The notes under the pieces are model-generated. The model was not told the origin of the DNA and ran no database searches. It saw only the letters and a list, made by a program, of their open reading frames with translations. Positions 42,431 to 57,894 of a stretch of 64,000 nt of DNA are shown here, one piece after another (position 1 is the stretch's first letter; every line of letters begins with the position of its first letter). Origin of the DNA: Bdellovibrionales bacterium (GTDB lineage Bacteria; Bdellovibrionota; Bdellovibrionia; Bdellovibrionales; UBA1609). The stretch spans positions 62,001-126,000 of the forward strand of contig JAHBUX010000002.1 in NCBI GenBank assembly GCA_019637855.1. The letters are read 5' to 3'. Position numbers and translations under genes: made by a program.

Positions 42431-43510
42431 ATGGAATCCACCTTTCAATGGAACGCAAAAACCAAAGTGGAGTTTTTAAAGAAGCTGCCCAGTCGCGAGC
42501 GCATGGCGGAGTCGCTTGGTTTTAAGCCTGAAAAATTCGTTGTGATCTATGACAAACGCTTAGCGAAGCACGAAGGCTTTGCTAAATGGATCGGTGACTT
42601 CACCATGGCTTATCCGGTCGGCGCAGGTGAGCGTTTGAAAGAGGTCGTCGATCTGCCGTCGCATTTAAAAAAACTGATGAAAATCATGGGTCCATTTTCG
42701 AGCAAGTCACTGGCCTTGGTCAGTGTGGGCGGCGGGTCGGTAGGCGACTTTGCGGGATTTGTAGCCAGTGTTTTGAAGCGTGGGGTCCCTTTCATTCAAA
42801 TCCCCTCAACTCTGTTGGCGGCTATGGATTCCGCTCACGGGGGGAAGACCGCGCTGAATATGGGTGAGGTTAAAAACCAGATCGGCACTTTCTATCCGGC
42901 CGACAGCGTGATGATTGTGAAGTCGTTGTTTGAAGGTTTACCGGCGCTCCAGCTGCAATCCGCTGGCGGCGAGTTGGCCAAGATGGCTTTGCTCGAAGGC
43001 GGCACACTGTACGATAAATTCAAAGCGGCCTTGCGCTTGGACTTTGAAACCATTTGGAACCTTCTACCGGAGGCTATCGAAGCGAAATACAAAGTGGTCG
43101 AGCGTGATCCGTTTGAGAAGAACGGCGAACGTCAGATGCTTAATCTTGGGCACAGTCTTGGTCACGCTTTGGAAAGCTACTATGGTTTGGCTCACGGAGT
43201 GGCTGTCGGCCAAGGTTTGATCTTCGCGGCTCAATGGAGCGCGCATCAAGGCTACTGGCGCGATCCGCGCGAGGCTCTGGAACTCTTGCAGGGCAGTGCG
43301 GGATTTTTGCCGGCAAAAGAATTTGTGAAAAAACATCGCGCGATGTCGCGCTCAAAGCTCTCGCGCTACATCTCCGAAGATAAGAAGCTCACTGATACGC
43401 GCCACTTGACCTTTGTGTTTTTAGAGGGAGTGGGTAAACCCTTCCGCAAGGTGGTCACGCTGGAGTCCTTTTTGACGGAAACTCAACGTCAGGGTTGGAC
43501 CTACGTGTGA
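42431..43510 (+). CDS. aroB: 3-dehydroquinate synthase
   Basis: 359 residues, second step of the shikimate pathway: DAHP to 3-dehydroquinate, with NAD and a divalent metal. VSVGGGSVGDFAGFVAS near 103-119 binds NAD; the substrate lysine lies in AHGGKTALN; metal ligands are Glu in GGELAKMAL and His residues in NLGHSLGHALE. All key residues appear intact. First gene of the aroB-aroA-aroKDE-aroC operon, whose genes are linked by overlaps. Gene order equals the domain order of eukaryotic AROM. Confidence 0.93.
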   Translation: MESTFQWNAKTKVEFLKKLPSRERMAESLGFKPEKFVVIYDKRLAKHEGFAKWIGDFTMAYPVGAGERLKEVVDLPSHLKKLMKIMGPFSSKSLALVSVGGGSVGDFAGFVASVLKRGVPFIQIPSTLLAAMDSAHGGKTALNMGEVKNQIGTFYPADSVMIVKSLFEGLPALQLQSAGGELAKMALLEGGTLYDKFKAALRLDFETIWNLLPEAIEAKYKVVERDPFEKNGERQMLNLGHSLGHALESYYGLAHGVAVGQGLIFAAQWSAHQGYWRDPREALELLQGSAGFLPAKEFVKKHRAMSRSKLSRYISEDKKLTDTRHLTFVFLEGVGKPFRKVVTLESFLTETQRQGWTYV

Positions 43511-44685
43511 GTGCCTTTGCCTTTGTGGGCAAGCTTCCCGCATCCAAGTCCATGTTGAACCGTCTGCTGTTGTTGCAAAGCTACTCTCCTGATTTACGCA
43601 TCGAAGGTGACAGTCAGTGCGAAGACGTTCTGCGCATGCGCGCCGCCCTCGCGGATCTCGCCGCCGGTCGGGAAATGAACGCCGGTAGCGCCGGAACCGT
43701 TCTGCGTTTTATGGCTTTGCGTGCGGCGCGGGAGCCAGGTACCCATCGTATCGTGGGCGAACGTCGTTTGTTCGCACGCCCACAACAAGAGTTGCTCAAA
43801 ATTCTTAAGCAGATTGGCGTCGAGGCTAAGCTTTCAGAAAATTCTTTGCAGATGAAGGGCGAGGGCTGGCGCCTGCACGGCGACACTTTGCTCGTGCCTT
43901 TTGAGCGCAGCAGCCAGTTTGCGACGGCGGTTTTACTGAATGCATGGGATTTACCCTTCGACCTATATGTTTCTTTAGGTGGGCAGAAGGTGAGTGAAGG
44001 TTATTGGCGCATGAGCTTGCGTATGGCGCAAGAACTCGGCATGCGCATTGACTTCTGGGATGGCGACTTTCGCGTTCCACGGGGGCAGAAAATCAACCGC
44101 TTCTCTTACTCCGCCGAAGTCGATGTAAGCTCGGCTTTTGCTTTGGCCGCTGTTGCTGCAGTCAGTGGAGCGGCGACGTTTTTAGATTTTCCGTCCGTGG
44201 GTTTGCAGCCAGACGTGGGCTTTGTGGCCATTCTTGAGCGTATGGGTGTGCCGGTCGTGCAAACCATGTCGACCTTGAAAGTGGAACGCACCCGGCGCTT
44301 GACCGGAGTAGCGGTGAATCTGAAGACCATGCCGGATCTGTTCCCGGTCTTGGCCGCGCTGTGTGCTTTGGCCGAGGGAGAAAGTGATCTCTACGGTGCG
44401 CCTCACTTAGTGCATAAAGAATCCGATCGTTTGCATCAGGTTGCCGAGTGGATTCGCCGCCTTGGCCGCGAAGTCGAAGTGAAAGAAGACGGTATGGTGA
44501 TCCGTGGTGAGCCTGTGGCGGCGCCTGGGCCTGGAGGTCTGGTGTTGAATTGCGCCGGCGATCACCGTTTGGCTTTTGCCGCTGCGGTTTTGCGGGCCGC
44601 GGGTTTTGCGGTTGAGATCGAACATCCCGAAGTGGTCACTAAAAGTTTTCCTGAATTCTGGAGCATTCTCGGATGGGAAATCTAG
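43507..44685 (+). CDS. aroA: 3-phosphoshikimate 1-carboxyvinyltransferase (EPSP synthase)
   Basis: 392 residues, sixth step of the shikimate pathway. KLPASKSMLNRLLLL holds the conserved Lys, Ser and Arg for shikimate-3-phosphate; NAGSAGTVLRF at about 57-67 is the PEP loop; the catalytic Asp is in TMPDLFPVLAAL; GDHRLAFA ends the active site. It is some 35 residues shorter than E. coli AroA and quite divergent, but the motifs are in place. GTG start in a GTGA overlap with aroB; its end overlaps the trifunctional gene by 13 bases. Confidence 0.9.
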   Translation: MSAFAFVGKLPASKSMLNRLLLLQSYSPDLRIEGDSQCEDVLRMRAALADLAAGREMNAGSAGTVLRFMALRAAREPGTHRIVGERRLFARPQQELLKILKQIGVEAKLSENSLQMKGEGWRLHGDTLLVPFERSSQFATAVLLNAWDLPFDLYVSLGGQKVSEGYWRMSLRMAQELGMRIDFWDGDFRVPRGQKINRFSYSAEVDVSSAFALAAVAAVSGAATFLDFPSVGLQPDVGFVAILERMGVPVVQTMSTLKVERTRRLTGVAVNLKTMPDLFPVLAALCALAEGESDLYGAPHLVHKESDRLHQVAEWIRRLGREVEVKEDGMVIRGEPVAAPGPGGLVLNCAGDHRLAFAAAVLRAAGFAVEIEHPEVVTKSFPEFWSILGWEI

Positions 44686-46409
44686 TCACTTTACTGATCG
44701 GCCATCGCGGCACTGGCAAAAGCGCTTTGCTCAAGCGTTTGGCTGATCGTCATCCGCAAGTGGCGACCTTTGATCTAGATAGCGAGATCGCTCATAGCAC
44801 CGGTGAGAGTGTGAGCGCTATCTTTGCGCGCAGTGAGCCTGAGTTCCGCGCGCACGAACGCCGAGTTTTAAACGAGCTGATCTCGACCCCGGGTGCGAAA
44901 GTCATTGCCCTTGGTGCGGGCTTTGAAGGCCCTTTGCCGGCGGAAGCTCACGTGGTGTGGGTTCGCCGCGCCACGGATGCGGGGGGCCGCGTGTTTACTG
45001 GTCGTCCGCGTTTAAATCCTAATGTCAGTTTATACGAAGAGTATATGGAGCGCTTTCCTCAGCGCGAAGAGCGCTATCGCTTATGGGCGCACGAGGTCCT
45101 GACCGTGCCCGAAGGAGATGAAAGTGCGTTGAGTGAAGACGCTTGGGACCTGAGTGATTTTTTATGGTCACCGCGCTGGAACTTACGCGCCGATCTGACA
45201 CTCTTGCCGGAAGACTTCCGTGCCTGGCGCCCGTTCTGGGGTAAGCGCTATTTTTGGGATTTGCGCTATTTGGAAGTGCGCGAGGATCTTTTGCGCCCCG
45301 ATCAGATGGAGCGCGCTCTGACTGATATCCCTGCCGATAAAATCATTTACGCCTGTCGCGATACGACGGTGATGCCGGAGGCGTACAAATGCGACTGGCC
45401 GCTTGAAAAAGGTGCTCCTCCGCGCCGGCCGTTTATTTTGTCACTGCATGCGCGCGATCAGGAATGGTCAAGATGTTTAGAAGAGCTCACGTCCCACCCG
45501 GCCGAAATTTATAAGTTGGCGGTGGAGATCCGCGATTTTCATGAGCTCGAGCTGGGACACAAGTGGTGGTTGGAAGACCCCGAACATCGCGCCTTCTTGC
45601 CGCGATCAGTGGATGGGCGCTGGCGCTGGTACCGCAGCTTATTTGGTCCGCGCATGCCGCTTCATTATATCCGCGAGGGGCAGGGCAGCGCTTTAGATCA
45701 ACCGTATCTGTGGCAGTCTGTGTTGCAACCGGTGTTGGGTAAGAATTTTGCCGCCGTGCTCGGTAACCCGGTTGAACACAGTCGCTCGCCGCGCGAGCAT
45801 CAGGCGTTTTTCAAAAACACTCCATTTGTGACGGTCGAAGTCCGCGAAGAGGAGTTCGCTCAAGCTCTTCCGGTATTGCAACGATTGGGATTGAAGTATG
45901 CGGCTGTCACATCGCCGTTGAAACGCGTGGCGTTTGCCGCGTGCGAGACGCTGAGCTCGGAAGCTGAGTCCCTGCGTACGGTCAACACGCTTTTTCACGA
46001 CGGTGTGATTTGGCATGGACACAACACCGATTATTTAGCTCTAAAGCAGATTCGCTCGCAGCTGCCTGAGCTTGCGAGCGTATGGCTTTGGGGCGGCGGT
46101 GGCATTAAAAGTTCGGTCAAGCGAGTTTGGCCGGAAGCGCGCGAAATTTCCGCACGTGCGGGTGTTACTGCGGAGACGAGCGAGAGTCCGGCGTTGGTGA
46201 TTTGGGCGACCGGCCGCTCGCGCGAGTTTCAATGGCCGCCAGAACACGTGCAGCCGCAGCTGATTTTGGATTTGAACTATGGTGAAAATTCGCCGGGCCT
46301 GGAATGGGCGGTGCGATCCAACTTACCCTACCAATCCGGCTTGAGAATGTTTAAGCTACAGGCCGAAGCACAGCGGATCTATTGGCGCGCACGCAGCGAG
46401 GACGTATGA
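44673..46409 (+). CDS. aroK/aroD/aroE: trifunctional shikimate kinase / type I 3-dehydroquinate dehydratase / shikimate dehydrogenase
   Basis: One 578-residue chain carries three shikimate enzymes. Kinase, about 1-165: Walker A GHRGTGKS at 10-17, Asp34/Asp36, LGAGFEG, RPRL. Type I dehydratase, about 170-355: LEVREDLL, IYACRD, His259 in LSLHARDQ and Schiff-base Lys281 in IYKLAVEI, and FGPRMPL. Dehydrogenase, about 357-578: LGNPVEHSRSP, Lys417 in TSPLK, VNTL, HNTDY with Asp453, GGGGIKS, and GLRMFKLQ. The active-site residues of all three seem present. It would convert dehydroquinate to shikimate-3-phosphate through three steps, feeding AroA. The domain order equals the last three of eukaryotic AROM. 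Its stop overlaps aroC (ATGA). Confidence 0.9.
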   Translation: MGNLVTLLIGHRGTGKSALLKRLADRHPQVATFDLDSEIAHSTGESVSAIFARSEPEFRAHERRVLNELISTPGAKVIALGAGFEGPLPAEAHVVWVRRATDAGGRVFTGRPRLNPNVSLYEEYMERFPQREERYRLWAHEVLTVPEGDESALSEDAWDLSDFLWSPRWNLRADLTLLPEDFRAWRPFWGKRYFWDLRYLEVREDLLRPDQMERALTDIPADKIIYACRDTTVMPEAYKCDWPLEKGAPPRRPFILSLHARDQEWSRCLEELTSHPAEIYKLAVEIRDFHELELGHKWWLEDPEHRAFLPRSVDGRWRWYRSLFGPRMPLHYIREGQGSALDQPYLWQSVLQPVLGKNFAAVLGNPVEHSRSPREHQAFFKNTPFVTVEVREEEFAQALPVLQRLGLKYAAVTSPLKRVAFAACETLSSEAESLRTVNTLFHDGVIWHGHNTDYLALKQIRSQLPELASVWLWGGGGIKSSVKRVWPEAREISARAGVTAETSESPALVIWATGRSREFQWPPEHVQPQLILDLNYGENSPGLEWAVRSNLPYQSGLRMFKLQAEAQRIYWRARSEDV

Positions 46410-47440
46410 GAGGCAATCAGTTCGGTCGCGTATTTTGTCTAAATACTTTTGGTGAAAGCCATGGGCCCGGTATGGGCGCTGTGATCGATGGTTGTCCCGC
46501 CGGCGTTGTTTGGCAGCAAGAGTTGATGAACCGTTCCCTGGAACGTCGGCGGCCGGGGCGTAGTCCGTTTGCCTCTGGACGACAGGAAAGCGATATTGTT
46601 GAGATTCTTTCGGGTGTTTATGAAAGCGTTACGCTCGGCACTCCTATCGCCGCGGTCTTATATAATGAAGACGCGCGTTCGCAGGACTATAAACCCCAAC
46701 AGATGCAGCAACGCCAAGGCCACGCCACCGATCTGTGGCAAAACAAATACGGTCATTCGGATCCGCGTGGTAGTGGCCGTGCCTCGGGCCGTGAGACTGT
46801 GAGCCGTGTGATTGGCGGCGCCGTAGCCCGTATGTTTGTCAGCCAAGTGTATCCGGAAGCACAAGTCATTTCGTTTGTTTCGCGCATTGGTCGCATTGCT
46901 TTGAGCGATGGTGATTGCGTTGACGCTGCCGAGGCTTTGGAAAATGATCCCTGGCACGTGGATGAGTTTAGTTTACGCTGCCCTAGTCAGGAGAAGAACG
47001 ACTCAATGGAGTCTTTGCTCTCCGAAGCCCGCGAGACGGGCGAGAGCTACGGTGGCATGGCCTTTGTACGCCTGGCAGGGATTCCGCGTGGGCTAGGTCA
47101 ACCTGTGTTTGGTAAACTAAAATCGGAACTAGCCGCTGCTTTTATGAGCATTGGTGCGACCGCGGGCGTGGAGATGGGTCAAGGGTTCGAAGCCGCGCAA
47201 ACGTCAGGTAAAGAGTTTCACAACAGTAGACAAGATTATGGCGGATTAAGAGGAGGAATCTCAACAGGTGATCCGGTGAGCTTCCGCGTGGCTTTCAAGC
47301 CGACAGCCACACGCAATGAGATGGCGCGTGAAGGTCGTCACGATCCGTGCATCGTTCCGCGCGCAGTTCCAGTTTTGGAAGCGATGGCGTGGCTTGTATT
47401 GGCTGACCAAATTTTGTTGTCGCGCTTAGACCGAGTTTGA
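46406..47440 (+). CDS. aroC: chorismate synthase
   Basis: 344 residues, the last shikimate step, FMN-dependent. The start MRGNQFGRVFCLNTFGESHG is the family signature; SGRASGRETVSRVIGGAVA binds FMN, and SGKEFHNSRQDYGGLRGGIS and FKPTAT complete it. Length is slightly short of 360 but motifs are whole. ATGA overlap with the trifunctional gene fixes the start; a longer frame begins inside that gene. It produces chorismate for menF, which starts 1.9 kb away. Confidence 0.95.
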   Translation: MRGNQFGRVFCLNTFGESHGPGMGAVIDGCPAGVVWQQELMNRSLERRRPGRSPFASGRQESDIVEILSGVYESVTLGTPIAAVLYNEDARSQDYKPQQMQQRQGHATDLWQNKYGHSDPRGSGRASGRETVSRVIGGAVARMFVSQVYPEAQVISFVSRIGRIALSDGDCVDAAEALENDPWHVDEFSLRCPSQEKNDSMESLLSEARETGESYGGMAFVRLAGIPRGLGQPVFGKLKSELAAAFMSIGATAGVEMGQGFEAAQTSGKEFHNSRQDYGGLRGGISTGDPVSFRVAFKPTATRNEMAREGRHDPCIVPRAVPVLEAMAWLVLADQILLSRLDRV

Positions 47441-47473: not shown

Positions 47474-47731
47474 ATGAAAAAACAAACCGAAGTCAAAATC
47501 CCTTGGAAGTCTCTGCGCGAACGCGCCGGTCTCACTCAGAGCGAAGTTTCGCGTGCTTTGGGTTATTCGACACCGCAGTTTATCTCGAATGTGGAGCGCG
47601 GCCGTTGCCGTTTCCCGGTTCAGAAATTGCCGAAAATTCGTAAACTCTATCGCATGTCTGTCGATCAAGTCGTCGAGATGATCGTCAAAGAAGAAAAGCA
47701 AGGCCTGCTCAAGGCTTTCCGTCGCGCTTAA
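47474..47731 (+). CDS. XRE-type helix-turn-helix mini-regulator
   Basis: 85 residues consisting almost only of a DNA-binding domain: WKSLRERAGLTQSEVSRALGY holds helices 1-2, and STPQFISNVERGRCRFP the recognition helix and turn. A short charged tail follows. It lies 34 bases after aroC, in the same direction, ahead of the convergent menG. It may regulate the aro or men genes it sits between, but no operator was identified. It could also be part of the aroC message. Confidence 0.8.
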   Translation: MKKQTEVKIPWKSLRERAGLTQSEVSRALGYSTPQFISNVERGRCRFPVQKLPKIRKLYRMSVDQVVEMIVKEEKQGLLKAFRRA

Positions 47732-47761
47732 ATAAATAAATTTAAACAATTGGATATGGCA

Positions 47762-47782
47762 GGTTGCCTTGGTTAGGCAACC
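47762..47782. terminator. candidate bidirectional terminator between the HTH gene and menG
   Basis: GGTTGCCT-N5-AGGCAACC is a perfect eight-base stem that overlaps the menG stop codon. On the minus strand an A/T-rich tract (AATTGTTTAAATTTATTT) begins 13 bases later. The T-run is not immediate, so efficiency is uncertain. Confidence 0.45.
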
Positions 47783-48480
47783 ACGCCGCGGTAAATGAAC
47801 GACGCTCCGCCCATGAGTGTCCGGTACTCGCACGTTTTAAACGCGTGAGTGGAATTCATAAGATCAACAAAGCGTTCACGACTGGGAAAGCCACGCGATG
47901 AACGATTCAGATATTCGTAGGCGCCTCGTTGACCGGTGATCCAGCCGCCCAAGCGTGGAACCACCTGGCGAATATAAAATTGCATTGCTAGCTTGAGGCC
48001 CGTGCTGGGCGTATCACCAGTTTCTAGAATCATCACGCGGCCGCCCGGTTTCACCACGCGCGCCATCTCTCGTAAGGCTTTGGCCGGATCGGAGACATTG
48101 CGAATTCCGTAAGCGATGCTGGCGATATCGAACTGATTGTCGGAGAACGGTAGCTGAGTCACGTCCGCTAAGCTGAAGTCGACGTTCAGACCGAGAGCTT
48201 TCGCTTTCGGCGGTGCTTTGTCCAACATGCTCTCGCAAAAGTCGGTGCCGGTGACATGACCCTGTGGACCTACGGCACGTTTGAATTCAAGGGCCAGGTC
48301 GCCAGTGCCCGTGGCGCAATCCAAAACGTGATCACCGCGTTGGGCTCCACTCCAGGCTACGGTTTTACGGCGCCAGGAGCGCGCCATTCCGAAAGTCATC
48401 GCATCGTTGGCGCGATCGTAGCCAGCGGCCACAGAGGTAAAGATAGATTTGATCTCTTCCGGTCGCGGACCTTGCATCAT
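47773..48480 (-). CDS. menG: demethylmenaquinone methyltransferase (UbiE/MenG)
   Basis: 235 residues of the UbiE family: IKSIFTSVAAGYDRANDAMTFG at the start, VLDCATGTGDLALEF as motif I, and YGIRNVSDPAKALREMARVVKPGG, all diagnostic. It methylates demethylmenaquinone with SAM, the final step of menaquinone synthesis. Ubiquinone function is unlikely because the window holds a whole men pathway and no other ubi gene. The ATG overlaps the DAHP synthase stop (ATGA), so the first enzyme of aromatic synthesis and the last of menaquinone synthesis are translated from one message. Confidence 0.92.
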   Translation of the reverse strand: MMQGPRPEEIKSIFTSVAAGYDRANDAMTFGMARSWRRKTVAWSGAQRGDHVLDCATGTGDLALEFKRAVGPQGHVTGTDFCESMLDKAPPKAKALGLNVDFSLADVTQLPFSDNQFDIASIAYGIRNVSDPAKALREMARVVKPGGRVMILETGDTPSTGLKLAMQFYIRQVVPRLGGWITGQRGAYEYLNRSSRGFPSRERFVDLMNSTHAFKTCEYRTLMGGASFIYRGVVA

Positions 48481-49274
48481 ACCGTCGCCATCTTGCGATC
48501 CAGCGCCGTCAAAACCTTCGGCAGTTTATGCATCAGATCTTCAAACTGCGCAAAATTCAGCGACTGGTAACCGTCGGATTTAGCTTCCGGCGGGTTGGGA
48601 TGCACTTCAACCAACAGGCCGTCGGCGCCGGCAGCAGCCGCTGCCAAAGCGATCGGAGTCACCAAGGCTGCAATGCCCGTCCCATGCGAAGGATCTGCTA
48701 AAATCGGGAAGGGAGTCTCTTGCTTGGTCAGAGCGATGGCGTTGATATCAAAAGTGTTACGTGTTGCGGTTTCAAAGGTACGGATACCGCGTTCACAGAG
48801 AATGATTTTCTCATTTCCGCCTTTGGCCAAATAGTCGACGGCCAACATCCACTCTTTGAAAGTGGCGGCGAACCCGCGTTTGAGCAAAATTGGTTTATCG
48901 ATCTGAGAGAGTTCTTTCAACAAAGCGTAGTTGTGCATGTTGCGTGAGCCGACTTGAAAAGCATCGACCACATCGAGGAAGTCGCCGATCTGACGCGCGT
49001 CCGTGATCTCAGAAACAAAGGGAAGGCCGACGTCCTTTTTAACAGCGCGGACGAATTCAAAAGCTTCGCGACCCAGACCTTGGAAGGCGCGCGGGTCCGT
49101 ACGAAGTTTATAGAGACCGCCGCGCAGGCCTGCGCCACCTTGCTCTTTCACTTTGCGAGCCGTGAGGCTGAATTGCTCTTGAGACTCAACTGAACAGGGG
49201 CCAGCCCATACTGAAAATGGACCGCCACCCACAGTGGTGGAACCAACCTTGACGACGTTAAACTTGTGCTTCAT
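48477..49274 (-). CDS. 3-deoxy-7-phosphoheptulonate (DAHP) synthase, type I-beta
   Basis: 265 residues of the KDO8P-synthase-like DAHP synthase class. WAGPCSVESQEQ near 25-36, GLRGGLYKLRTDPRAFQGLG, LLKRGFAATFKEW, ILCERGIRTFE, and PILADPSHGTG with its metal ligands are characteristic. It joins PEP and erythrose-4-phosphate, the entry to the aromatic pathway. I chose the ATG giving MKHKFNVVKV; upstream ATGs would cross the divergent menF start. There is no N-terminal regulatory domain, so feedback control through that route is not expected. Confidence 0.9.
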   Translation of the reverse strand: MKHKFNVVKVGSTTVGGGPFSVWAGPCSVESQEQFSLTARKVKEQGGAGLRGGLYKLRTDPRAFQGLGREAFEFVRAVKKDVGLPFVSEITDARQIGDFLDVVDAFQVGSRNMHNYALLKELSQIDKPILLKRGFAATFKEWMLAVDYLAKGGNEKIILCERGIRTFETATRNTFDINAIALTKQETPFPILADPSHGTGIAALVTPIALAAAAAGADGLLVEVHPNPPEAKSDGYQSLNFAQFEDLMHKLPKVLTALDRKMATV

Positions 49275-49306
49275 TCTGCCCCAGTTTGTAGACCCTTGAA
49301 TGCTAT

Positions 49307-50350
49307 ATGTCATCAAGAGTTTCGAGAATCTCTAGTGGTATTGGAATGTTAGAAGAAGCACGTCAAGCTCGTAACAATCTCGCCTGGTTGCGTGATTCGC
49401 AGCACAAAAAGGCCCTGCACGTGTTGGGCAAGCGCCCCGAGCCATCGCCCGGTCGATTGGCGTTTTTTAGTCCTGACTTTGCGTTGAGCGAGGCCGAACC
49501 TTGGCTGGTGGGCGAAGAGATTCCATGGCCCGAGCCGTGGCCCACGGAATTGCCGCCATTACGTCACCGCGTCGAACCCTCTGCCGCCGACTTCAATCGT
49601 TTGCACGAGGATATCTTGCGCCGAATTGACGTGGGTGAGTTTGAGAAGGTCGTGCCGATCGTGTGTGAGGAGTTGGAGTACGCTTCGGTTCTGCAACCCT
49701 CCATGTTCCCGCGCGTTTTTTCTCAGCTAGAGAACCAATATTCCTATGGTTTTGCCTTTGGCCAAGAGGGTTTAGTTGGTGTCACACCGGAGTTGCTGTT
49801 TTCGGTGCGCGCCGGCGTTTTGCAAACCATGGCTTTGGCTGGAACGGGGCCTGTCGACGGACCGTCACTGCTGCAAGACCCTAAAGAACGGCGTGAGCAC
49901 GAGTTGGTGATCCAGCACATTGTCGGTGAGCTTTCATTATGGGGTCGGCCCAAAGTGGGCGAAACGGTGGAGCGTGTTTTTGGTGTTTTAAAGCATCTCT
50001 ACACGCCGATCCATTTACAGTTGCAGACGCAACCAACGTTTATGGATGTGGTGGTGCGCCTGCATCCTACGGCCGCACTAGGTGGTTGGCCGCGGCGGCC
50101 AGCGGTGGAGTGGTTGGAGCGCCAGAAGTTTCACACCGCGCGCGGTCGTTTTGGTGCGCCATTTGGTTTTCAAGATGCGGATGGATCCATGGTTTGTGTG
50201 GTGGCCATTCGCGGATTGCAGTGGACTGGCCGGCGCGCCCTGCTGTCTTCGGGGTGTGGCGTGGTGAAGGGCAGTCAGGCTCTGCGCGAGTGGAATGAGT
50301 TGGCTTTGAAGCGCAATTCGGTGAATCGCAATTTAGGTTTACGTATATGA
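49307..50350 (+). CDS. menF: isochorismate synthase
   Basis: 347 residues of the chorismate-binding family. VGVTPELLFSV, MALAGTGPVDGP, REHELVIQHI and LHPTAALGGWPRRPAVEWL are the conserved active-site blocks; they fit isochorismate rather than anthranilate synthase. It opens the menaquinone branch by converting chorismate. The N-terminal half is shorter than in E. coli MenF. The start is uncertain between this ATG and one 13 codons later. It is divergent from DAHP synthase, and its stop overlaps menD (ATGA). Confidence 0.9.
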   Translation: MSSRVSRISSGIGMLEEARQARNNLAWLRDSQHKKALHVLGKRPEPSPGRLAFFSPDFALSEAEPWLVGEEIPWPEPWPTELPPLRHRVEPSAADFNRLHEDILRRIDVGEFEKVVPIVCEELEYASVLQPSMFPRVFSQLENQYSYGFAFGQEGLVGVTPELLFSVRAGVLQTMALAGTGPVDGPSLLQDPKERREHELVIQHIVGELSLWGRPKVGETVERVFGVLKHLYTPIHLQLQTQPTFMDVVVRLHPTAALGGWPRRPAVEWLERQKFHTARGRFGAPFGFQDADGSMVCVVAIRGLQWTGRRALLSSGCGVVKGSQALREWNELALKRNSVNRNLGLRI

Positions 50351-51873
50351 GTCATGGCAATTTGCACTTAGCGGCTTCGGTGATTGAAGCTTGTGCTCGC
50401 GTCGGTGTGCGTGAATTCGTTTTGTGCGCCGGCGCCCGCAATGCGCCGTTGGTGAAGCTTCTGGATCAGCGCCAAAGCGAAGGTCAAGCCAGTGAATTCA
50501 AAACTTTCTCTTTTTTTGAGGAGCGCAGCGCGGCCTTTTTCGCATTGGGGCGGATGCAGGCCAGCGGTCGACCGGTGGCGGTGATCACCACTTCGGGAAC
50601 CGCCGTGGCTGAGCTTTTGCCGGCCACGATCGAAGCGCACTATCAAGGCCTGCCTTTACTTTTGCTGACAGCGGATCGGCCAAAACGCTATCGCGGTTGC
50701 GGAGCTCCGCAGACCATCGTGCAGACCGGAATGTTTTCGCACTATGTGGAGCATGAGTGGGATTTGGAAGCGGGGACCGCGGTGGATTTGGCGACCTGGT
50801 CGCGCCTGCGACCGTTGCATGTGAATGTTTGTTTTGAAGAACCAAATCCGCCGCCGGAAGCCGCCGAAAAGAAAACGACTCAATCCACGCTAGAATTGAG
50901 TACGCCCTTTGCCATACACAGCTTTCGCCAACCTTTGGTCATCGTCGCAGGGTTGAGCTCTCAAGTGGCACCGTCCATTCTTTCAATCCTAAAAACCTGG
51001 CAGCAACCGGTCTACGCAGAAGCAGCCTCTCAACTGCGCGGCCAACTCGGAGACCTCGAGATCCTAGAGGCCTCCATCGCGCGTCTTCCGCATGATGGAG
51101 TCATTCGTATCGGCACCGTTCCGACATTGCGCTATTGGCGCGATCTCGAGAACTCGGATATCCCCGTAGCGCACTTTTCCGACCTACCGTTCAGCGGTAT
51201 GCCGCGTACGCAGACGGTTTTTCCGCTGGGTGCGCTGCCTAAATCCGCGGCTGCCGAATGGCAGTCGTCGAGAGACGGCGAAGTTTCGCGCGCGTTGCAA
51301 AACAACACGGAGACCCGCCGTCGCCTCGTGGCGCTCTTGGAAAAATACCCGCTTTCAGAGCCCGGTTGGATAAACTGGATCAGCCGCGCGATTCCGGAGC
51401 AAGCGCGCGTGTTTCTCGGCAACAGCCTTCCCATTCGCGAATGGGATTTGGCCGCGCAGCCGTCGCGCGCTGAGATCTTTGTCAACCGCGGAGCCAATGG
51501 CATCGACGGTTTGATCTCCACCTTTTTAGGTGTGGCCGCGCAAACTCATTCGAACTGGGCGATCTTGGGTGACCTCTCCGCGCTTTATGATTTGTCAGGT
51601 CCATGGGCTCTGAGAGAGCGGCCCGAATTAAAAGACGTCACTCTGGTCGTAATCAATAACGGCGGCGGAAAGATCTTCCAGCGCATATTTAACAATGCTC
51701 TTTTTGAAAACCGACACGCACTTGGCTTTGGTGATTGGGCCAAGATGTGGGACTGGGATTATGCCTTGTGGGACAAGCTTCCCACCGCGGTCGGCCCATG
51801 CGTACGGCCGCGGGTCTTGGAAATTCGGCCGGATGAGGAGCAAACGGCGAAATTCTGGGAGGAGTGGCGGTGA
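50347..51873 (+). CDS. menD: SEPHCHC synthase (MenD)
   Basis: 508 residues, thiamine-diphosphate-dependent. FVLCAGARNAPLVKLL, FFEERSAAFFALGRM with the cofactor-activating Glu, and ITTSGTAVAELLPATIEA lie in the first domain; the ThDP-binding end has GDLSALYDLSG and VVINNGGGKIF. It joins isochorismate and 2-oxoglutarate. It is a little shorter than E. coli MenD (556) and has a reduced middle domain. Linked to menF by ATGA and to menH by GTGA overlaps. Confidence 0.93.
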   Translation: MSHGNLHLAASVIEACARVGVREFVLCAGARNAPLVKLLDQRQSEGQASEFKTFSFFEERSAAFFALGRMQASGRPVAVITTSGTAVAELLPATIEAHYQGLPLLLLTADRPKRYRGCGAPQTIVQTGMFSHYVEHEWDLEAGTAVDLATWSRLRPLHVNVCFEEPNPPPEAAEKKTTQSTLELSTPFAIHSFRQPLVIVAGLSSQVAPSILSILKTWQQPVYAEAASQLRGQLGDLEILEASIARLPHDGVIRIGTVPTLRYWRDLENSDIPVAHFSDLPFSGMPRTQTVFPLGALPKSAAAEWQSSRDGEVSRALQNNTETRRRLVALLEKYPLSEPGWINWISRAIPEQARVFLGNSLPIREWDLAAQPSRAEIFVNRGANGIDGLISTFLGVAAQTHSNWAILGDLSALYDLSGPWALRERPELKDVTLVVINNGGGKIFQRIFNNALFENRHALGFGDWAKMWDWDYALWDKLPTAVGPCVRPRVLEIRPDEEQTAKFWEEWR

Positions 51874-52580
51874 CACTTCTCCTGCACGGATTTTGGGGGC
51901 AACCGGCCGATTGGAATCAGGTGCTCGCGCGCCTTCCTCTCAATGCCGAAGTTTTTGTTCCTGATCTCTATGAGGCCGGTCCTTTTAGTCCCAACAAAGC
52001 TATGGCTCAATGGGCGGAGAATATGATTGCGCACATCGAGGCCCACACTTCCGCGCCGGTAAAGCTGGTGGGATATTCGATGGGAGCGCGTCTGGCGTTG
52101 GCGCTCCTTACACGCAAACCTCAACTCTTTTCTCGTGCGCTATTGCTTTCCGGTGCGCCCGGCTTGCATCCGGGAGTCACACCGCATGCGCGTCAGGAGT
52201 GGGAAAAAGACTGGGCCGGTCGCTTCTTGCACGAAGACTGGCAGAAGCTCGAGGACGCTTGGGACAAACAGGAGGTGTTCACGCACTCTGCGACTCAAGC
52301 CCCGCGCCGGCGCTCGCAAATTTTACGGGAAATGTTGGCTCTGTCGCTGTTGCATTGGTCACCGCGCGTGCATCCGTACAGCGTGGAACAGATCAAAGCG
52401 CTCAAATCCTCTGTGCAATGGGCCTTTGGCGCTTTGGATCAAAAGTATGTGAAGCTCGCGAAAACCTTGCAGGAACTGCCTGTCCAAGGGCAAATAACCA
52501 TCATTCCAAACGCAGGGCATCGTTTGCCGACCACGGCCGCCGAATTTGTTGGCGATTGGATTGTTCAGGGAGGGAGTTAA
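51870..52580 (+). CDS. menH: SHCHC synthase-like alpha/beta hydrolase (MenH)
   Basis: 236 residues. LLLHGFWGQPADW forms the oxyanion region, GYSMGARLAL holds the nucleophilic Ser, FGALDQKYV the acid and NAGHRLPTT the His, so the triad is complete. Position directly after menD, with a GTGA overlap, matches MenH, which eliminates pyruvate from the MenD product. The GTG start is favoured by GGGAGGA six bases upstream; an alternative GTG lies two codons earlier. A generic esterase cannot be excluded by sequence alone. Confidence 0.85.
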   Translation: MTLLLHGFWGQPADWNQVLARLPLNAEVFVPDLYEAGPFSPNKAMAQWAENMIAHIEAHTSAPVKLVGYSMGARLALALLTRKPQLFSRALLLSGAPGLHPGVTPHARQEWEKDWAGRFLHEDWQKLEDAWDKQEVFTHSATQAPRRRSQILREMLALSLLHWSPRVHPYSVEQIKALKSSVQWAFGALDQKYVKLAKTLQELPVQGQITIIPNAGHRLPTTAAEFVGDWIVQGGS

Positions 52581-52582
52581 AA

Positions 52583-52783
52583 ATGGCTAACGAATTTGTC
52601 GAACTCAAATCGACCGAGAATCAAACTGTTTTCGTGCGTCCTGAAGCGGTCAGCGCCTTTGAAGTGGTGCCGGCCTCGAATCGCGTGGAAGGTCATATCA
52701 AAGTTTTTATCGCCGGCTTCAAGTTTCTAGTTCAAGGCGATCAGGACGAATTGCTAAAGCAACTCAACTCACAAGGTAAGTAA
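52583..52783 (+). CDS. 66-residue protein inside the men operon, unknown function
   Basis: This small gene fits exactly between menH (two bases) and menB (one base). GGAGGGAG precedes its ATG, which is a strong ribosome site. The protein reads [20 protein letters not shown] and continues with [21 protein letters not shown], then QDELLKQL, suggesting a small beta-sheet with a terminal helix. No signal, membrane segment or known motif. It is absent from the classic men operons I know. It could be a structural or regulatory partner of MenB or of the membrane enzymes. Confidence 0.7.
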
Positions 52784-52784
52784 T

Positions 52785-53606
52785 ATGGCTGAACAATGGA
52801 TACCGATTAAAGAATATAAGGACATCAAGTTCGAGCGCACCGAAGACGGTGTGGCGAAGATCACCATCAACCGTCCCGAAGTGCGCAACGCCTTCCGCCC
52901 GCAGACGGTGATGGAGTTGAAAGACGCTTTTGAAATCAGCCGCGAGAACCCCAAGATCGGCGTTGTGATTCTGACCGGTGAAGGCCCTGATGCTTTTTGC
53001 TCGGGCGGTGATCAGAAGGTGCGTGGCCATGCCGGTTATGTGGGAGAGGACGGAGTTCCGCGTCTCAATATATTAGATGTGCAAAAACAAATTCGCTTTC
53101 TACCCAAACCGGTCATCGCGATGGTGGCGGGTTACGCCATCGGCGGTGGTCATGTCTTGCACGTGGTCTGCGATTTGACGATCGCTGCGGACAATGCTCG
53201 CTTTGGTCAGACTGGCCCGAAAGTGGGATCGTTTGACGGCGGCTTGGGCTCCTCTTACCTGGCGCGCATTGTCGGTCAGAAGAAAGCCCGTGAGATCTGG
53301 TACCTTTGCCGCCAGTACGACGCGAAACAGGCGATGGAGATGGGATTGGTGAACACCGTTGTTCCTCTCGCACAGCTCGAAACAGAGACCATGAAGTGGG
53401 CCCGCGATATCTTGCAACATTCGCCGTTGGCCATTCGCTGCTTGAAGGCCGCACTCAATGCGGACTGCGACGGTCAAATCGGCTTGCTCGATCTGGCGGG
53501 CGACGCCACTCTTCTGTACTACATGTCGGAAGAGGCCAAAGAGGGTAAGCAGGCCTTTGTCGAGCGCCGCCCACCTGAATTCGGAAAATTTCCGCGACTG
53601 CCATGA
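52785..53606 (+). CDS. menB: 1,4-dihydroxy-2-naphthoyl-CoA synthase
   Basis: 273 residues of the crotonase superfamily with MenB marks: [26 protein letters not shown] for the oxyanion hole, and [20 protein letters not shown], then [20 protein letters not shown], which includes the bicarbonate-binding Gly segment and the catalytic Asp and Ser. It closes the ring of succinylbenzoyl-CoA. The ATG lies one base after the 66-residue gene; stop overlaps menA by four bases. Confidence 0.96.
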
Positions 53607-54487
53607 CCTCACGCACGCGCGCCCTGCTGTTGACCGCTCGACCCAAGACACTTGCGGCTGCCATCGTTCCTGTGATGGTGGCCACCGCTTTGGTGAAGGC
53701 CGAGGGCTTAACGGTTACACCCTCTATCTCTGTGTTCGCAGTTTTATCGGCGATCATGATTCAAATCGGCACCAACTTTATCAACGATGCTCTGGATTTT
53801 TGGAAAGGTGCGGATAAGGAAACGCGGTTAGGGGATGCCCGTGCCTGTCAATCGGGCTGGTTTTCACCGCGCACGGTTTTGCTTATGGGGCTCGGCTGTT
53901 TTGCCACGGCCATGCTCCTTGGCTTGCCCTTGGTGTATGTGGGCGGTTGGCCGATATTTTGGGTCGGCATCGCTTCGCTATTGATGGGTTATGCTTATAC
54001 GGGTGGACCTTACCCACTGGCCTACGTCGGTTTGGGCGATCTTTTCGTGATCTTGTTTTTCGGGCTTGTGGCGGTCGGTGGCGTTTACTACCTGCAGACT
54101 GCGGGTCTTTCCGCCGGTGCCTTGGTGGCGGGCCTACAGGTCGGCTTACTGGCCACGGTCTTAATTGCGATCAACAATCTGCGCGATCTGGATCAGGACC
54201 GCGAAGTGAATAAGCGCACTTTGGCTGTGCGCTTAGGCCCTAAGCTGGGGCGATTGGAAGTTCTCTTGCTGATCCTGGTGGCCTTTGTCCTTAACCTTTA
54301 TTGGTTGGGCCAAGGTGCATGGCTTGCATTTCTTCTGCCGTTGTTTGCTCTCCCGCCGGCCATCAAGGTTGTGCTTACGCTTTTGCGCTCGCAAGCTAGC
54401 CGCGAGTACAATCGGCTCTTGGCGAAGGCCGCTTTCGTGCATATGCTATTCGGAGTGCTCCTTAGCATAGGATTTGTCTTAAGATGA
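53603..54487 (+). CDS. menA: 1,4-dihydroxy-2-naphthoate polyprenyltransferase
   Basis: 294 residues of the UbiA superfamily, about nine membrane helices. [15 protein letters not shown] holds the first NDxxD prenyl-diphosphate site; the second Asp motif is [23 protein letters not shown], which is typical of MenA. It attaches the side chain to DHNA in the inner membrane, with loss of CO2. ATGA overlaps link it to menB and menC. A second UbiA homologue lies 3.4 kb on; this one has the better MenA motifs. Confidence 0.93.
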
Positions 54488-55401
54488 AAATATGGGTTCA
54501 TCCCTATCAACTCCGTCCGCGGGTGCCGCATGTGCAGCCGCGTATGGGAGTTCTGGTGAAGGTCGAATGGGCCATGCACCAGGTGGGATACAGCGACTTG
54601 CATCCATGGCCCGAGTTCGGTGAACAGCCGCTCGACGCGCATATCGATTCGCTGGCCAAAGTGGAGTTCACGCCGCTGGCGGAGATGTCGATGGAGTTCA
54701 ATTACATCGACCGTGAATTCCGCCTGCACAAACGCAATGCCTTTCTCGGCATGATCGTGCCGCGCAGTCATCGTCTGGTTTTTGACATCGAGACTCTTCA
54801 AGCCCCACAGCTGACGCAATGGCAAAAGGACGGCTTCACTCATATCAAAGTGAAGATGGGGCGTGATTTGAAGCGCGAAACGGAAGCGTTCACGCAGCTG
54901 GCTTACTCGAGCAATCTGCTGTGGCGTTTGGATATGAACGGGCGTTTGAGCGAAAAAGACTTCACTGATTGGTGGAAGAAACTCGACGATTCGGTGCGCG
55001 CTCGCATCGACTTTATTGAAGATCCCGTGAACAAAGATGAGCAGTTGAAAGTTCCTGGGCCGTGGGCCGATGATTGGTCCAAACAGAAGTTCGCTAAGAT
55101 CCGCGTGGTGAAACCCGCGCGTGAAGCGGCGGAAGAGTTGATTTCCTATGATCGCGTTGTCTTCACGCACGGCTTAGAACACTCCTTTGGCCAAGCTTGT
55201 GCGGCTTGGTCAGCCGCCAACTATTACGGTCAACATCCGAAGAAAACTGAAGTGTGCGGACTGGCGGCCCCCGATATTTATGAACCTGACGATTTCACTC
55301 GAGCGTGGAGTTGCGAAGGGCCGCGTATGAAACCCACACCTGGATTCGGCTTCGGTTTTGATGAGCTGCTGGAGAAGTTGAAATGGGAGCGCATTCTGTA
55401 G
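54484..55401 (+). CDS. menC: o-succinylbenzoate synthase
   Basis: 305 residues of the enolase superfamily. HIKVKMGRD carries the catalytic Lys; LDMNG, FIEDPVN and the later acidic residue are metal ligands; FAKIRVVKPA has the second Lys. It dehydrates SHCHC to o-succinylbenzoate. Sequence is far from E. coli MenC but active-site spacing is kept. It is coupled with menA by ATGA and overlaps menE by 19 bases, so position also supports the call. Confidence 0.9.
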   Translation: MKIWVHPYQLRPRVPHVQPRMGVLVKVEWAMHQVGYSDLHPWPEFGEQPLDAHIDSLAKVEFTPLAEMSMEFNYIDREFRLHKRNAFLGMIVPRSHRLVFDIETLQAPQLTQWQKDGFTHIKVKMGRDLKRETEAFTQLAYSSNLLWRLDMNGRLSEKDFTDWWKKLDDSVRARIDFIEDPVNKDEQLKVPGPWADDWSKQKFAKIRVVKPAREAAEELISYDRVVFTHGLEHSFGQACAAWSAANYYGQHPKKTEVCGLAAPDIYEPDDFTRAWSCEGPRMKPTPGFGFGFDELLEKLKWERIL

Positions 55402-56498
55402 AGTGGTTGGTGTCACCACACCTAGCGTCCTGGCAAAAGAAGGTGCTAAAGAATTTGCGCGCGCGCGTGCCGCACGAGCCGGGCACGGTTTGGGTGTTGT
55501 CCTCAGGTACACAATCCGTCAATGAGGTGAAATGCATCGGCCTCTCGCGCACTGCGATCGAGGCTTCTGCGCGGGCTGTGAACGCGCATTTAAAAGCCAC
55601 GGATCGTGACCGCTGGCTCATCGCCATTCCTGAGTATCATGTGGGTGGTTATATGATCCGCGTGCGGGCCAGGCTGTCTGGCTCGTCTGTTTTTACCTTG
55701 GGTAAATGGACGGCAGAAAAATTTGTGAACACAGTGCAGGTCAAGCGCATCACACTCAGCTCTTTGGTGCCCACGCAAATCTATGACCTAGTCTCTTTAG
55801 GTTTGCCCGCGCCTCCCTCACTGCGGGCCATTGTTGTGGGCGGTGGAGCTTTAGACGAGAATCTTTATTTGCGGGCTCGCCGGTTGGGTTGGCCGCTCTT
55901 GCCGAGTTATGGTTTGACCGAAACCGCTTCGCAGGTGGCGACCGCGTCGCTTGACTCTCTGGCGGACCAATTGGTTTATCCTGCACTTGTTCCTCTTGCA
56001 CATGCGCAGCTAGAAATGCGCGGCGAGCGTTTATGGATTCAAGCCGATTCACTTTGCCGTTGGGTCGCGCGCAGTGATTCCGGTGGACAGTTCACCCTTG
56101 AAGACCCTCGTCGCCGCGGTTGGATTGCGAGCGAAGACATCGCCGAGAAAACAAAAGACGGATGGCGTATCCTCGGGCGCGGCGATGACGTGGTGAAAGT
56201 GCTCGGCGTGTTGGTGCCTTTGGCTCAGATCGAAGGCGAGTGGCGCGAGCGTCTCACGGCCCGGGGTTGGAAAGCCGATATTGCGGTGATGGCTCGGCCG
56301 GAGGAACGCGCCGGTCACGAGATCTGTTTGCTGACGAATAGCAAACGCTCTTTGCAAGAGTGGGCGACGATGGTGGACGAATACAATCGGCAAGCGCCGG
56401 GGCCGCAGCGGATTCAACGCTTTTTATGGACGGCCCGTATCCCGCGTAATGAAATGGGCAAGGTGAAGAGAGCCGTGCTTAAGGCGGACCTTTTTTAA
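55383..56498 (+). CDS. menE: o-succinylbenzoate-CoA ligase
   Basis: 371 residues of the AMP-forming ligase family, distinctly short (common MenE proteins have 450-490). VLSSGTQSVNEVKCIGLS is the phosphate loop, PSYGLTETASQ the adenine motif, ASEDIAEKTKDGWRILGRGDD the hinge, and NEMGKVKRAVL the catalytic Lys region, so all cores remain; the N-terminal part is missing. It activates o-succinylbenzoate for MenB. The end overlaps the convergent thioesterase gene by four bases. Confidence 0.9.
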   Translation: MGAHSVEWLVSPHLASWQKKVLKNLRARVPHEPGTVWVLSSGTQSVNEVKCIGLSRTAIEASARAVNAHLKATDRDRWLIAIPEYHVGGYMIRVRARLSGSSVFTLGKWTAEKFVNTVQVKRITLSSLVPTQIYDLVSLGLPAPPSLRAIVVGGGALDENLYLRARRLGWPLLPSYGLTETASQVATASLDSLADQLVYPALVPLAHAQLEMRGERLWIQADSLCRWVARSDSGGQFTLEDPRRRGWIASEDIAEKTKDGWRILGRGDDVVKVLGVLVPLAQIEGEWRERLTARGWKADIAVMARPEERAGHEICLLTNSKRSLQEWATMVDEYNRQAPGPQRIQRFLWTARIPRNEMGKVKRAVLKADLF

Positions 56499-56899
56499 AC
56501 GTGTTGTAAGCGGGCGCGAATCGCCTCTGGAATGCCGATCTTCTTCATACCTTCGCGGCTGACAAAAACATGCGAGGTTTTCAAGCGGGCTAGTGCAGTG
56601 CCGTCGAGTGTTTGAAACTCGATTTCGAAATGCACCGAAGACTCACCGAGCTCGGCGACCCGCACCGTTACCTCAAATGTTTGGCCTGGCTTAAGTGGCT
56701 TTAAATAGTCGGCTTCCGCATGGCGCAACGGCACACCAAAGGCAGGATTTTTGAACCACTCTTCCCAGGAAATACCTTGCGCGGGCAGCCACTGTTCCAG
56801 AGCTCTATGGGCTAAACGGAAGTAATTGCCGAAGAAAACGATACCCTCGCTATCAGAATCGTCAAAAGCTGCGGTAAAACGAAGTTTTGCACTCGACAT
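56495..56899 (-). CDS. hotdog-fold thioesterase, likely DHNA-CoA thioesterase
   Basis: 134 residues of the 4-hydroxybenzoyl-CoA thioesterase type. FDDSDSEGIVFFGNYFRLAH at 12-31 is the standard active-site helix, with Asp16 as the catalytic acid; the family strand is YLKPLKPGQTFEVTVRV. DHNA-CoA hydrolysis is the step between MenB and MenA, and no other gene in the cluster can do it, so the assignment is strong by context. It reads against the men operon and starts 56 bases from the divergent polyprenyl synthase gene. Confidence 0.75.
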   Translation of the reverse strand: MSSAKLRFTAAFDDSDSEGIVFFGNYFRLAHRALEQWLPAQGISWEEWFKNPAFGVPLRHAEADYLKPLKPGQTFEVTVRVAELGESSVHFEIEFQTLDGTALARLKTSHVFVSREGMKKIGIPEAIRARLQHV

Positions 56900-56955
56900 G
56901 CCCGTAAGAGAACACCGTTGACTAAAAGAGTCAATTCCGCCAGAAGAAAGCCACT

Positions 56956-57894
56956 GTGAAAGACTTGAAGATTTTCAACGAGGATGACTTCCCGAAGTAT
57001 CTGCCGAAACTCAATTCGCTGTACGACGATTTGTTCTCCTCCGGTAAAGGGTTCCGTTCCAAGCTGATCCAGATGATGGGCAAGAATTTGCGTCTGACGA
57101 CCCGTCAAGAGCATCTGCTGGCGCAGACCATCGAGTTCATTCACAACGCCTCTCTGCTGCATGACGATCTGATCGATCGCTCACCCTTGCGTCGAAGCAA
57201 AACCGCCGCCTGGCTTAAGTACTCTCCCGAGTATGCGGTGTTGGCCGGTGACTATCTTTTGGCTCGCGTGATGGTCAATCTCTCGCGTTATGGCAATCTG
57301 CGGTTGATTCAGTACACGGCCGAGATCATTTCGGATCTGCTCGAAGGCGAATGGATCCAAGATTCTTTGGTGCGCGATTGGAATGTGCAGCTGATGCAGC
57401 TTGATCAAGTGCATGATTTGAAAACGGCGTCGTTGTTCAAATGGTGTTTTCGTGCGCCATTTATCGCTCAGGAGAACTACGACGAGCGCCTGCATCAGAC
57501 TCTCGAAGAGATGGGCACTTTGTTAGGGCTGTTGTTTCAGCGTGGCGATGATCTTTTGGATTTCGATATTCGTAATGATGAAGGTAAGGCTTTGCTCGGC
57601 GATCTGAAGTCGGGCTATTTGAATTCGTTCGCGGCTTTCTTGGCGCGTGATTTCAGCGAAATGAAAAAGCAAAAGCTGCGCGGTTGCCAGACACTTGATG
57701 AGGTCAAGGAGTTGGTGGGGCTGGAGGCCTTTAACCATGCGGTCCAAGAGTTCGATGAAATGAACACGCAGGTGATCGGTCTTTATGAGCATAAAGCCAA
57801 ATCGCTCGAAGAATTTTTGCCGCCCGAGCAGCGTGGTCTGATCAATGACTTTATGGGCCTGCCCAGCGTGCTTTATTTCCGGCGCGCCAAATGA
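56956..57894 (+). CDS. long-chain polyprenyl diphosphate synthase
   Basis: 312 residues of the IspA/IspB class. GKGFRSKLIQM holds the Arg-Lys site for isopentenyl diphosphate; LLHDDLIDRSPLRRSK the first DDxxD (70-74); QRGDDLLDFD the second. The residues just before the first Asp motif (HNASLL) are small, consistent with a long product. It would make the menaquinone side chain. It starts with GTG. The stop overlaps the second UbiA gene by four bases, supporting a joint role. Confidence 0.88.
   Translation: MKDLKIFNEDDFPKYLPKLNSLYDDLFSSGKGFRSKLIQMMGKNLRLTTRQEHLLAQTIEFIHNASLLHDDLIDRSPLRRSKTAAWLKYSPEYAVLAGDYLLARVMVNLSRYGNLRLIQYTAEIISDLLEGEWIQDSLVRDWNVQLMQLDQVHDLKTASLFKWCFRAPFIAQENYDERLHQTLEEMGTLLGLLFQRGDDLLDFDIRNDEGKALLGDLKSGYLNSFAAFLARDFSEMKKQKLRGCQTLDEVKELVGLEAFNHAVQEFDEMNTQVIGLYEHKAKSLEEFLPPEQRGLINDFMGLPSVLYFRRAK

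Follow-up and report, generated by a model that had tools for sequence, protein, structure and literature searches.

A predicted trifunctional shikimate-pathway fusion in AROM-like gene order in the Bdellovibrionota

AROM is the standard eukaryotic multienzyme of the shikimate pathway and forms a homodimer through its DHQS and DHQD domains. Its domain order is DHQS-EPSPS-SK-DHQD-SDH (PMC6851490). The known bacterial counterparts are bifunctional fusions only: a 2023 systematic search found shikimate fusions in prokaryotes, and those described were all bifunctional (PMC10792529). We found no report of a tri- or tetrafunctional bacterial shikimate fusion in the literature searched, although coverage was partial and novelty is therefore unproven.

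Here we describe a locus of a Bdellovibrionales bacterium, contained in a 64,000-nucleotide stretch of DNA (the window), in which aroB and aroA are followed by a single gene encoding aroK, aroD and aroE domains (KDE) and then by aroC. Read across adjacent genes and domains, the order B-A-K-D-E is that of AROM, as the initial annotation had recognized. We consider it very likely that this is a translationally coupled chorismate operon with a trifunctional KDE protein, and that the AROM-like order was reached convergently by repeated fusion.

Organization of the aro operon

The features of the operon, and the longer A-K-D-E chains found in relatives, are given in Table 1. The open reading frames agree with the initial annotation in the positions of aroB, aroA and the 578-residue three-domain gene: there is a 4-base overlap between the GTG start of aroA and the aroB stop, and one of 13 bases between aroA and KDE. 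The gene for chorismate synthase had been overlooked there. With a 4-base overlap at the KDE stop, it completes the operon as B-A-KDE-C. The further statement there that an AROM protein would result from the loss of two stops is wrong. The start positions of aroB, aroA, KDE and aroC (42431, 43507, 44673 and 46406) are 2, 1, 0 and 2 modulo 3, so successive genes lie in different frames; stop loss alone could not fuse them and each fusion needs a frame-restoring insertion or deletion. There are purine-rich stretches upstream of the overlapping starts, and together these features suggest that the genes are translationally coupled.

Table 1. Features of the aro operon in the window, and A-K-D-E chains in related genomes
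Feature	Position or genomes	Strand	Remarks
aroB, 3-dehydroquinate synthase, step 2	42431..43510	+	PF01761, PF24621
aroA, EPSP synthase, step 6	43507..44685	+	PF00275, E 3.5e-53
aroK-aroD-aroE (KDE), predicted trifunctional fusion, steps 5, 3, 4	44673..46409	+	578 aa
KDE, shikimate kinase domain, residues about 1-156	44673..45140	+	PF01202; Walker A G10-K16, D34, R111 conserved
KDE, putative divergent type I 3-dehydroquinate dehydratase domain, residues about 166-352	45168..45728	+	E201, H259, K281, R321, Q343 conserved; fold match
KDE, shikimate dehydrogenase domain, residues about 357-578	45741..46406	+	PF08501; K417, N438, D453, Y536, Q563 conserved
aroC, chorismate synthase, step 7	46406..47440	+	PF01264, E 2.4e-98; exceeds NCBIfam cut-off
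A-K-D-E, family f10	G045, G050, G054, G123, G124 (cut by contig end), G125		linkers 7-9 residues
A-K-D-E, family f8	G092, G093		linkers 5-6 residues
A-K-D-E, family f26	G326, G333		linkers 13-14 residues

Residue alignments show that aroB keeps the equivalents of E. coli K142, K151, E184, H247 and H264 and that the catalytic residues of aroA are intact. Within KDE, the kinase domain scores 44.7 bits against PF01202 (cut-off 22.1) and has the features that define a shikimate kinase, namely the SKI profile, the Walker A and DxD motifs, and the substrate and lid arginines. The dehydrogenase domain matches the N-terminal shikimate dehydrogenase profile PF08501 (Shikimate_dh_N) with 51 bits (cut-off 27) and contains the catalytic Lys/Asp pair expected of this enzyme (K417 and D453); its score is under the NCBIfam aroE equivalog cut-off. 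The catalytic residues of KDE are near-invariant across the family, and the statement of the initial annotation that the active sites of all three fused domains are intact holds, as the expected residues align in K, D and E.

If the enzymes are active as predicted, the operon aroB-aroA-aroKDE-aroC would make the enzymes of steps 2-7 together. AroB would supply KDE with dehydroquinate, which would be converted to dehydroshikimate by D, to shikimate by E and to shikimate 3-phosphate by K, and this product would be used by AroA and AroC. Any benefit of the fusion may lie in fixed stoichiometry or channelling.

The region downstream of aroC (47474-57894) places pathway step 1 and the menaquinone branch next to the aro operon. 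A small HTH regulator (47474-47731) is followed on the minus strand by UbiE/MenG and DAHP synthase, and then by a plus-strand run resembling menF (chorismate-binding), menD, menH, menB, menA, menC and menE together with a prenyl diphosphate synthase.

The divergent putative dehydroquinase domain

The D domain is the least typical part of KDE. The type I dehydroquinase profile PF01487, whose cut-off is a sequence-profile threshold rather than a mechanistic one, has no match in the KDE protein or anywhere in the genome in a Pfam search. In a profile-profile comparison the domain matches ordinary type I enzymes weakly (68% probability). The residues expected of a type I enzyme, a catalytic His, a Schiff-base Lys and substrate Arg/Gln, are nevertheless present: H259, K281, R321 and Q343 align with H143, K170, R213 and Q236 of E. 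coli AroD. His259, Lys281, Arg321, Gln343 and Glu201 are invariant in 24 members of the KDE family; Arg203 and Arg229 are near-invariant. An AlphaFold model of one KDE chain (mean pLDDT 91.7, pTM 0.91) predicts a type I fold for this domain in its fused context, as judged by alignment through D to AROM (6hqv) and to the plant enzyme 2gpt.

The D domain of Candida albicans Aro1 is inactive (PMC9074039), and with this precedent the missing PF01487 match and the weak profile score might mean that the D domain of KDE is likewise a degenerate structural spacer, with an unrecognized enzyme carrying out the dehydratase step. We regard this as improbable. The Candida domain has lost its catalytic residues and that organism has a type II enzyme, whereas here H259, K281, R321 and Q343 are retained throughout the 24 members and the Pfam search found neither a type I (PF01487) nor a type II (PF01220) dehydroquinase elsewhere in the genome. 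Additionally, a protein search of the same genome gave no second match to KDE. The D domain of KDE is thus the one dehydroquinase that could be identified in this genome. Taken together, the conserved residues and the predicted fold suggest that it is probably a very divergent but working type I dehydroquinase.

Distribution of KDE and of other fusions in the phylum

The gene order recurs among relatives, mostly as B-A-KDE-C, which is by far their commonest layout. Of the 59 genomes belonging to its genus, family and order, 51 have a match to the KDE protein. Within the class, 131 of 144 genomes match the KDE profile, three of them (family f7) only through weak matches to separate genes, so that KDE is present in about 128 of 144. 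Eight genomes from other families of the phylum also carry it. Almost all named matches are to Bdellovibrio, Bdellovibrionales, Pseudobdellovibrio, Oligoflexia or Bacteriovoracaceae, and they include B. bacteriovorus strain kdesi, whose genome is complete. These names place the window in the Bdellovibrionota. KDE is a genuine fusion conserved across the class, beyond what chance would give. It forms one clade in trees and thus probably had a single origin in this bacterial lineage.

Ten genomes, spread over three families, carry aroA joined in frame to KDE as one A-K-D-E chain, about 970-1110 residues long (Table 1); Pfam was run on three of these proteins. Each of the three families also has unfused members. 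The distribution of A-K-D-E needs three changes on the best tree, and a single fused clade (one origin with later losses) is compatible with the tree data (p-AU 0.18). We propose that the KDE fusion would have arisen once in the lineage and that aroA would later have been fused on in three families to give A-K-D-E. B was never fused in any locus examined, and no B-A-K-D-E chain was seen in the relatives. Two candidate B fusions, L034 (1073) and L078 (1366), were rejected, being stop-to-stop frames with open sequence upstream. A TGA in the A-K-D-E gene of G333 is the terminal stop and was rejected as an internal one.

Other arrangements are found in the phylum. A trifunctional D-E-A fusion, with a divergent dehydroquinase domain and a separate aroK just downstream, occurs at L174 4666-7266 (G302) and L243 46-2667 (G303) in frames of 867-874 residues. 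Other families have bifunctional E-K fusions of about 485 residues (L175 3854-5308 in G296, where D is separate, and L201, L219 and L232 in G308). The unfused order A-E-C-K-B also occurs elsewhere in the phylum. The blocks A-K and D-E thus recur in swapped positions, which would let the AROM order arise by chance more readily than from five independent genes.

Some loci have atypical frames. At L070 5325-7655 (G137) and in its named counterpart L145 the KDE frame continues into aroC, with D-E-C in one frame and K split by a frame change upstream; either a broken gene or a K-D-E-C fusion containing an assembly error might explain this. Unusually long KDE or A-K-D-E frames of 886, 1118 and 1138 residues (L035 5236-7893 in G016, L032 and L061, respectively) have insertions in and around the domains.

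The operon, K-D-E and A-K-D-E, with D-E-A and E-K beside them, are likely to represent a series of living intermediates in a stepwise and independent assembly of the AROM type. On this interpretation A-K-D-E would be a tetrafunctional counterpart of AROM that is without only DHQ synthase.

Relationship to AROM and to other known systems

The initial annotation had offered two readings of the gene order, kinship with the ancestral AROM state or a convergent arrangement, and had proposed phylogenies of the five domains to decide between them. Under common descent, the bacterial operon or A-K-D-E would be a relative of the source of AROM, the order having been passed on by gene transfer followed by one or two more fusions. 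The five genes in identical order are what this would predict, and the A-K-D-E fusions show that the next step exists. Fungal AROM domains were taken from PDB alignments, their lengths serving as a check on the transcription, and were compared with the plant bifunctional enzyme and with bacterial enzymes, including those of E. coli. A yeast ARO1 sequence served only as a query for retrieving the solved AROM sequences and is in no tree. A clade of the KDE family with AROM was tested in five single-domain trees and two concatenations (K+D+E and all five domains); the sample is of about 40 taxa, its AROM sequences are fungal only and its D domain is long-branched.

The trees of single domains divide. 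The B (DHQS), D and E trees do not reject the clade (p 0.28, 0.22 and 0.12, respectively), and in the K tree the KDE family and AROM are weakly sister (56/40), so that these four are compatible with common descent or weakly favour it. In contrast, the clade is rejected by the EPSPS tree (p-AU 0.0014), by the K+D+E concatenation (p-AU 0.0215) and by the five-domain tree (p-AU 0.026). AROM groups with Neisseria in the EPSPS tree (100/98) and with Nonomuraea in the DHQS tree (98/92), and it lies among ordinary enzymes in the K+D+E tree (99/97). In the five-domain tree AROM adjoins E. coli, Acinetobacter and Neisseria (99/98). In the same tree the KDE family is sister to the D-E-A fusion of its own phylum (98/95). 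Profile-profile scores favour bacterial single enzymes over AROM for all five domains, a comparison confounded by the small number of AROM sequences. Sequence scores with the K and E profile are likewise higher for bacterial single enzymes than for AROM (64 bits against 42-45 for K and 82 bits against 39-54 for E).

The predicted structure bears on the same question. Foldseek matches the KDE model to AROM 6hqv across all three domains (E 1.6e-21) and also pairs it, through the D region, with the plant dehydroquinase-shikimate dehydrogenase. The predicted D-E packing resembles that of 2gpt (rmsd 5.2 Å over about 480 aligned columns) and appears to differ from that of AROM, which matches the model only domain by domain (rmsd 18-19 Å). 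The occurrence of the A-K and D-E blocks in another order within the phylum (D-E-A, then K) also argues against common descent. Taken together, descent of the KDE-family domains with eukaryotic AROM is rejected by the EPSPS, K+D+E and five-domain trees, and we judge it very improbable that the order was inherited in common. The convergent arrangement is the supported reading. Finally, an assembly or frameshift artefact is practically excluded: the genome is a draft of 26 contigs, but the same uninterrupted frame is present in dozens of independent genomes, including the single-contig G048 and G042 and the complete B. bacteriovorus, which disposes of the frameshift that the initial annotation had named as able to undo the fusion.

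If the convergent origin is correct, B-A-K-D-E is an order that can be reached repeatedly, and it becomes testable whether selection favours the order, fixed stoichiometry or packing. In vitro work cited in PMC9074039 indicates no increased throughput for AROM. Judged from sequence, a whole bacterial lineage appears to have a trifunctional K-D-E in AROM order and several of its families a tetrafunctional A-K-D-E, and these proteins would be small bacterial multienzymes for biochemistry.

Among the known systems, AROM (Aro1 of fungi and protists) matches the arrangement described here in its five activities and their order, with K-D-E also in one chain, and both 6hqv and 7tbv give a three-domain Foldseek match to the KDE model. 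It differs in having all five domains in a single chain, in comparison with three genes here and at most A-K-D-E in relatives. Additionally, the D domain of KDE is far more divergent and its domains are predicted to be placed differently relative to one another. The plant bifunctional DHQ dehydratase-shikimate dehydrogenase (2gpt) shares the D-E order and, in the model, a similar D-E packing, but it is without a kinase domain, has an ordinary D domain and is not the sister of KDE in trees. The clostridial DHQD-SK protein (CASP15 T1180) is also a bacterial fusion of a type I dehydroquinase with shikimate kinase, but has two activities only, D being joined to K with no E (PMC10792529). The D-E-A fusion of G302 and G303 is like KDE in combining three shikimate steps in one chain and in its divergent D domain; its blocks are in another order, and aroK is a separate gene downstream.
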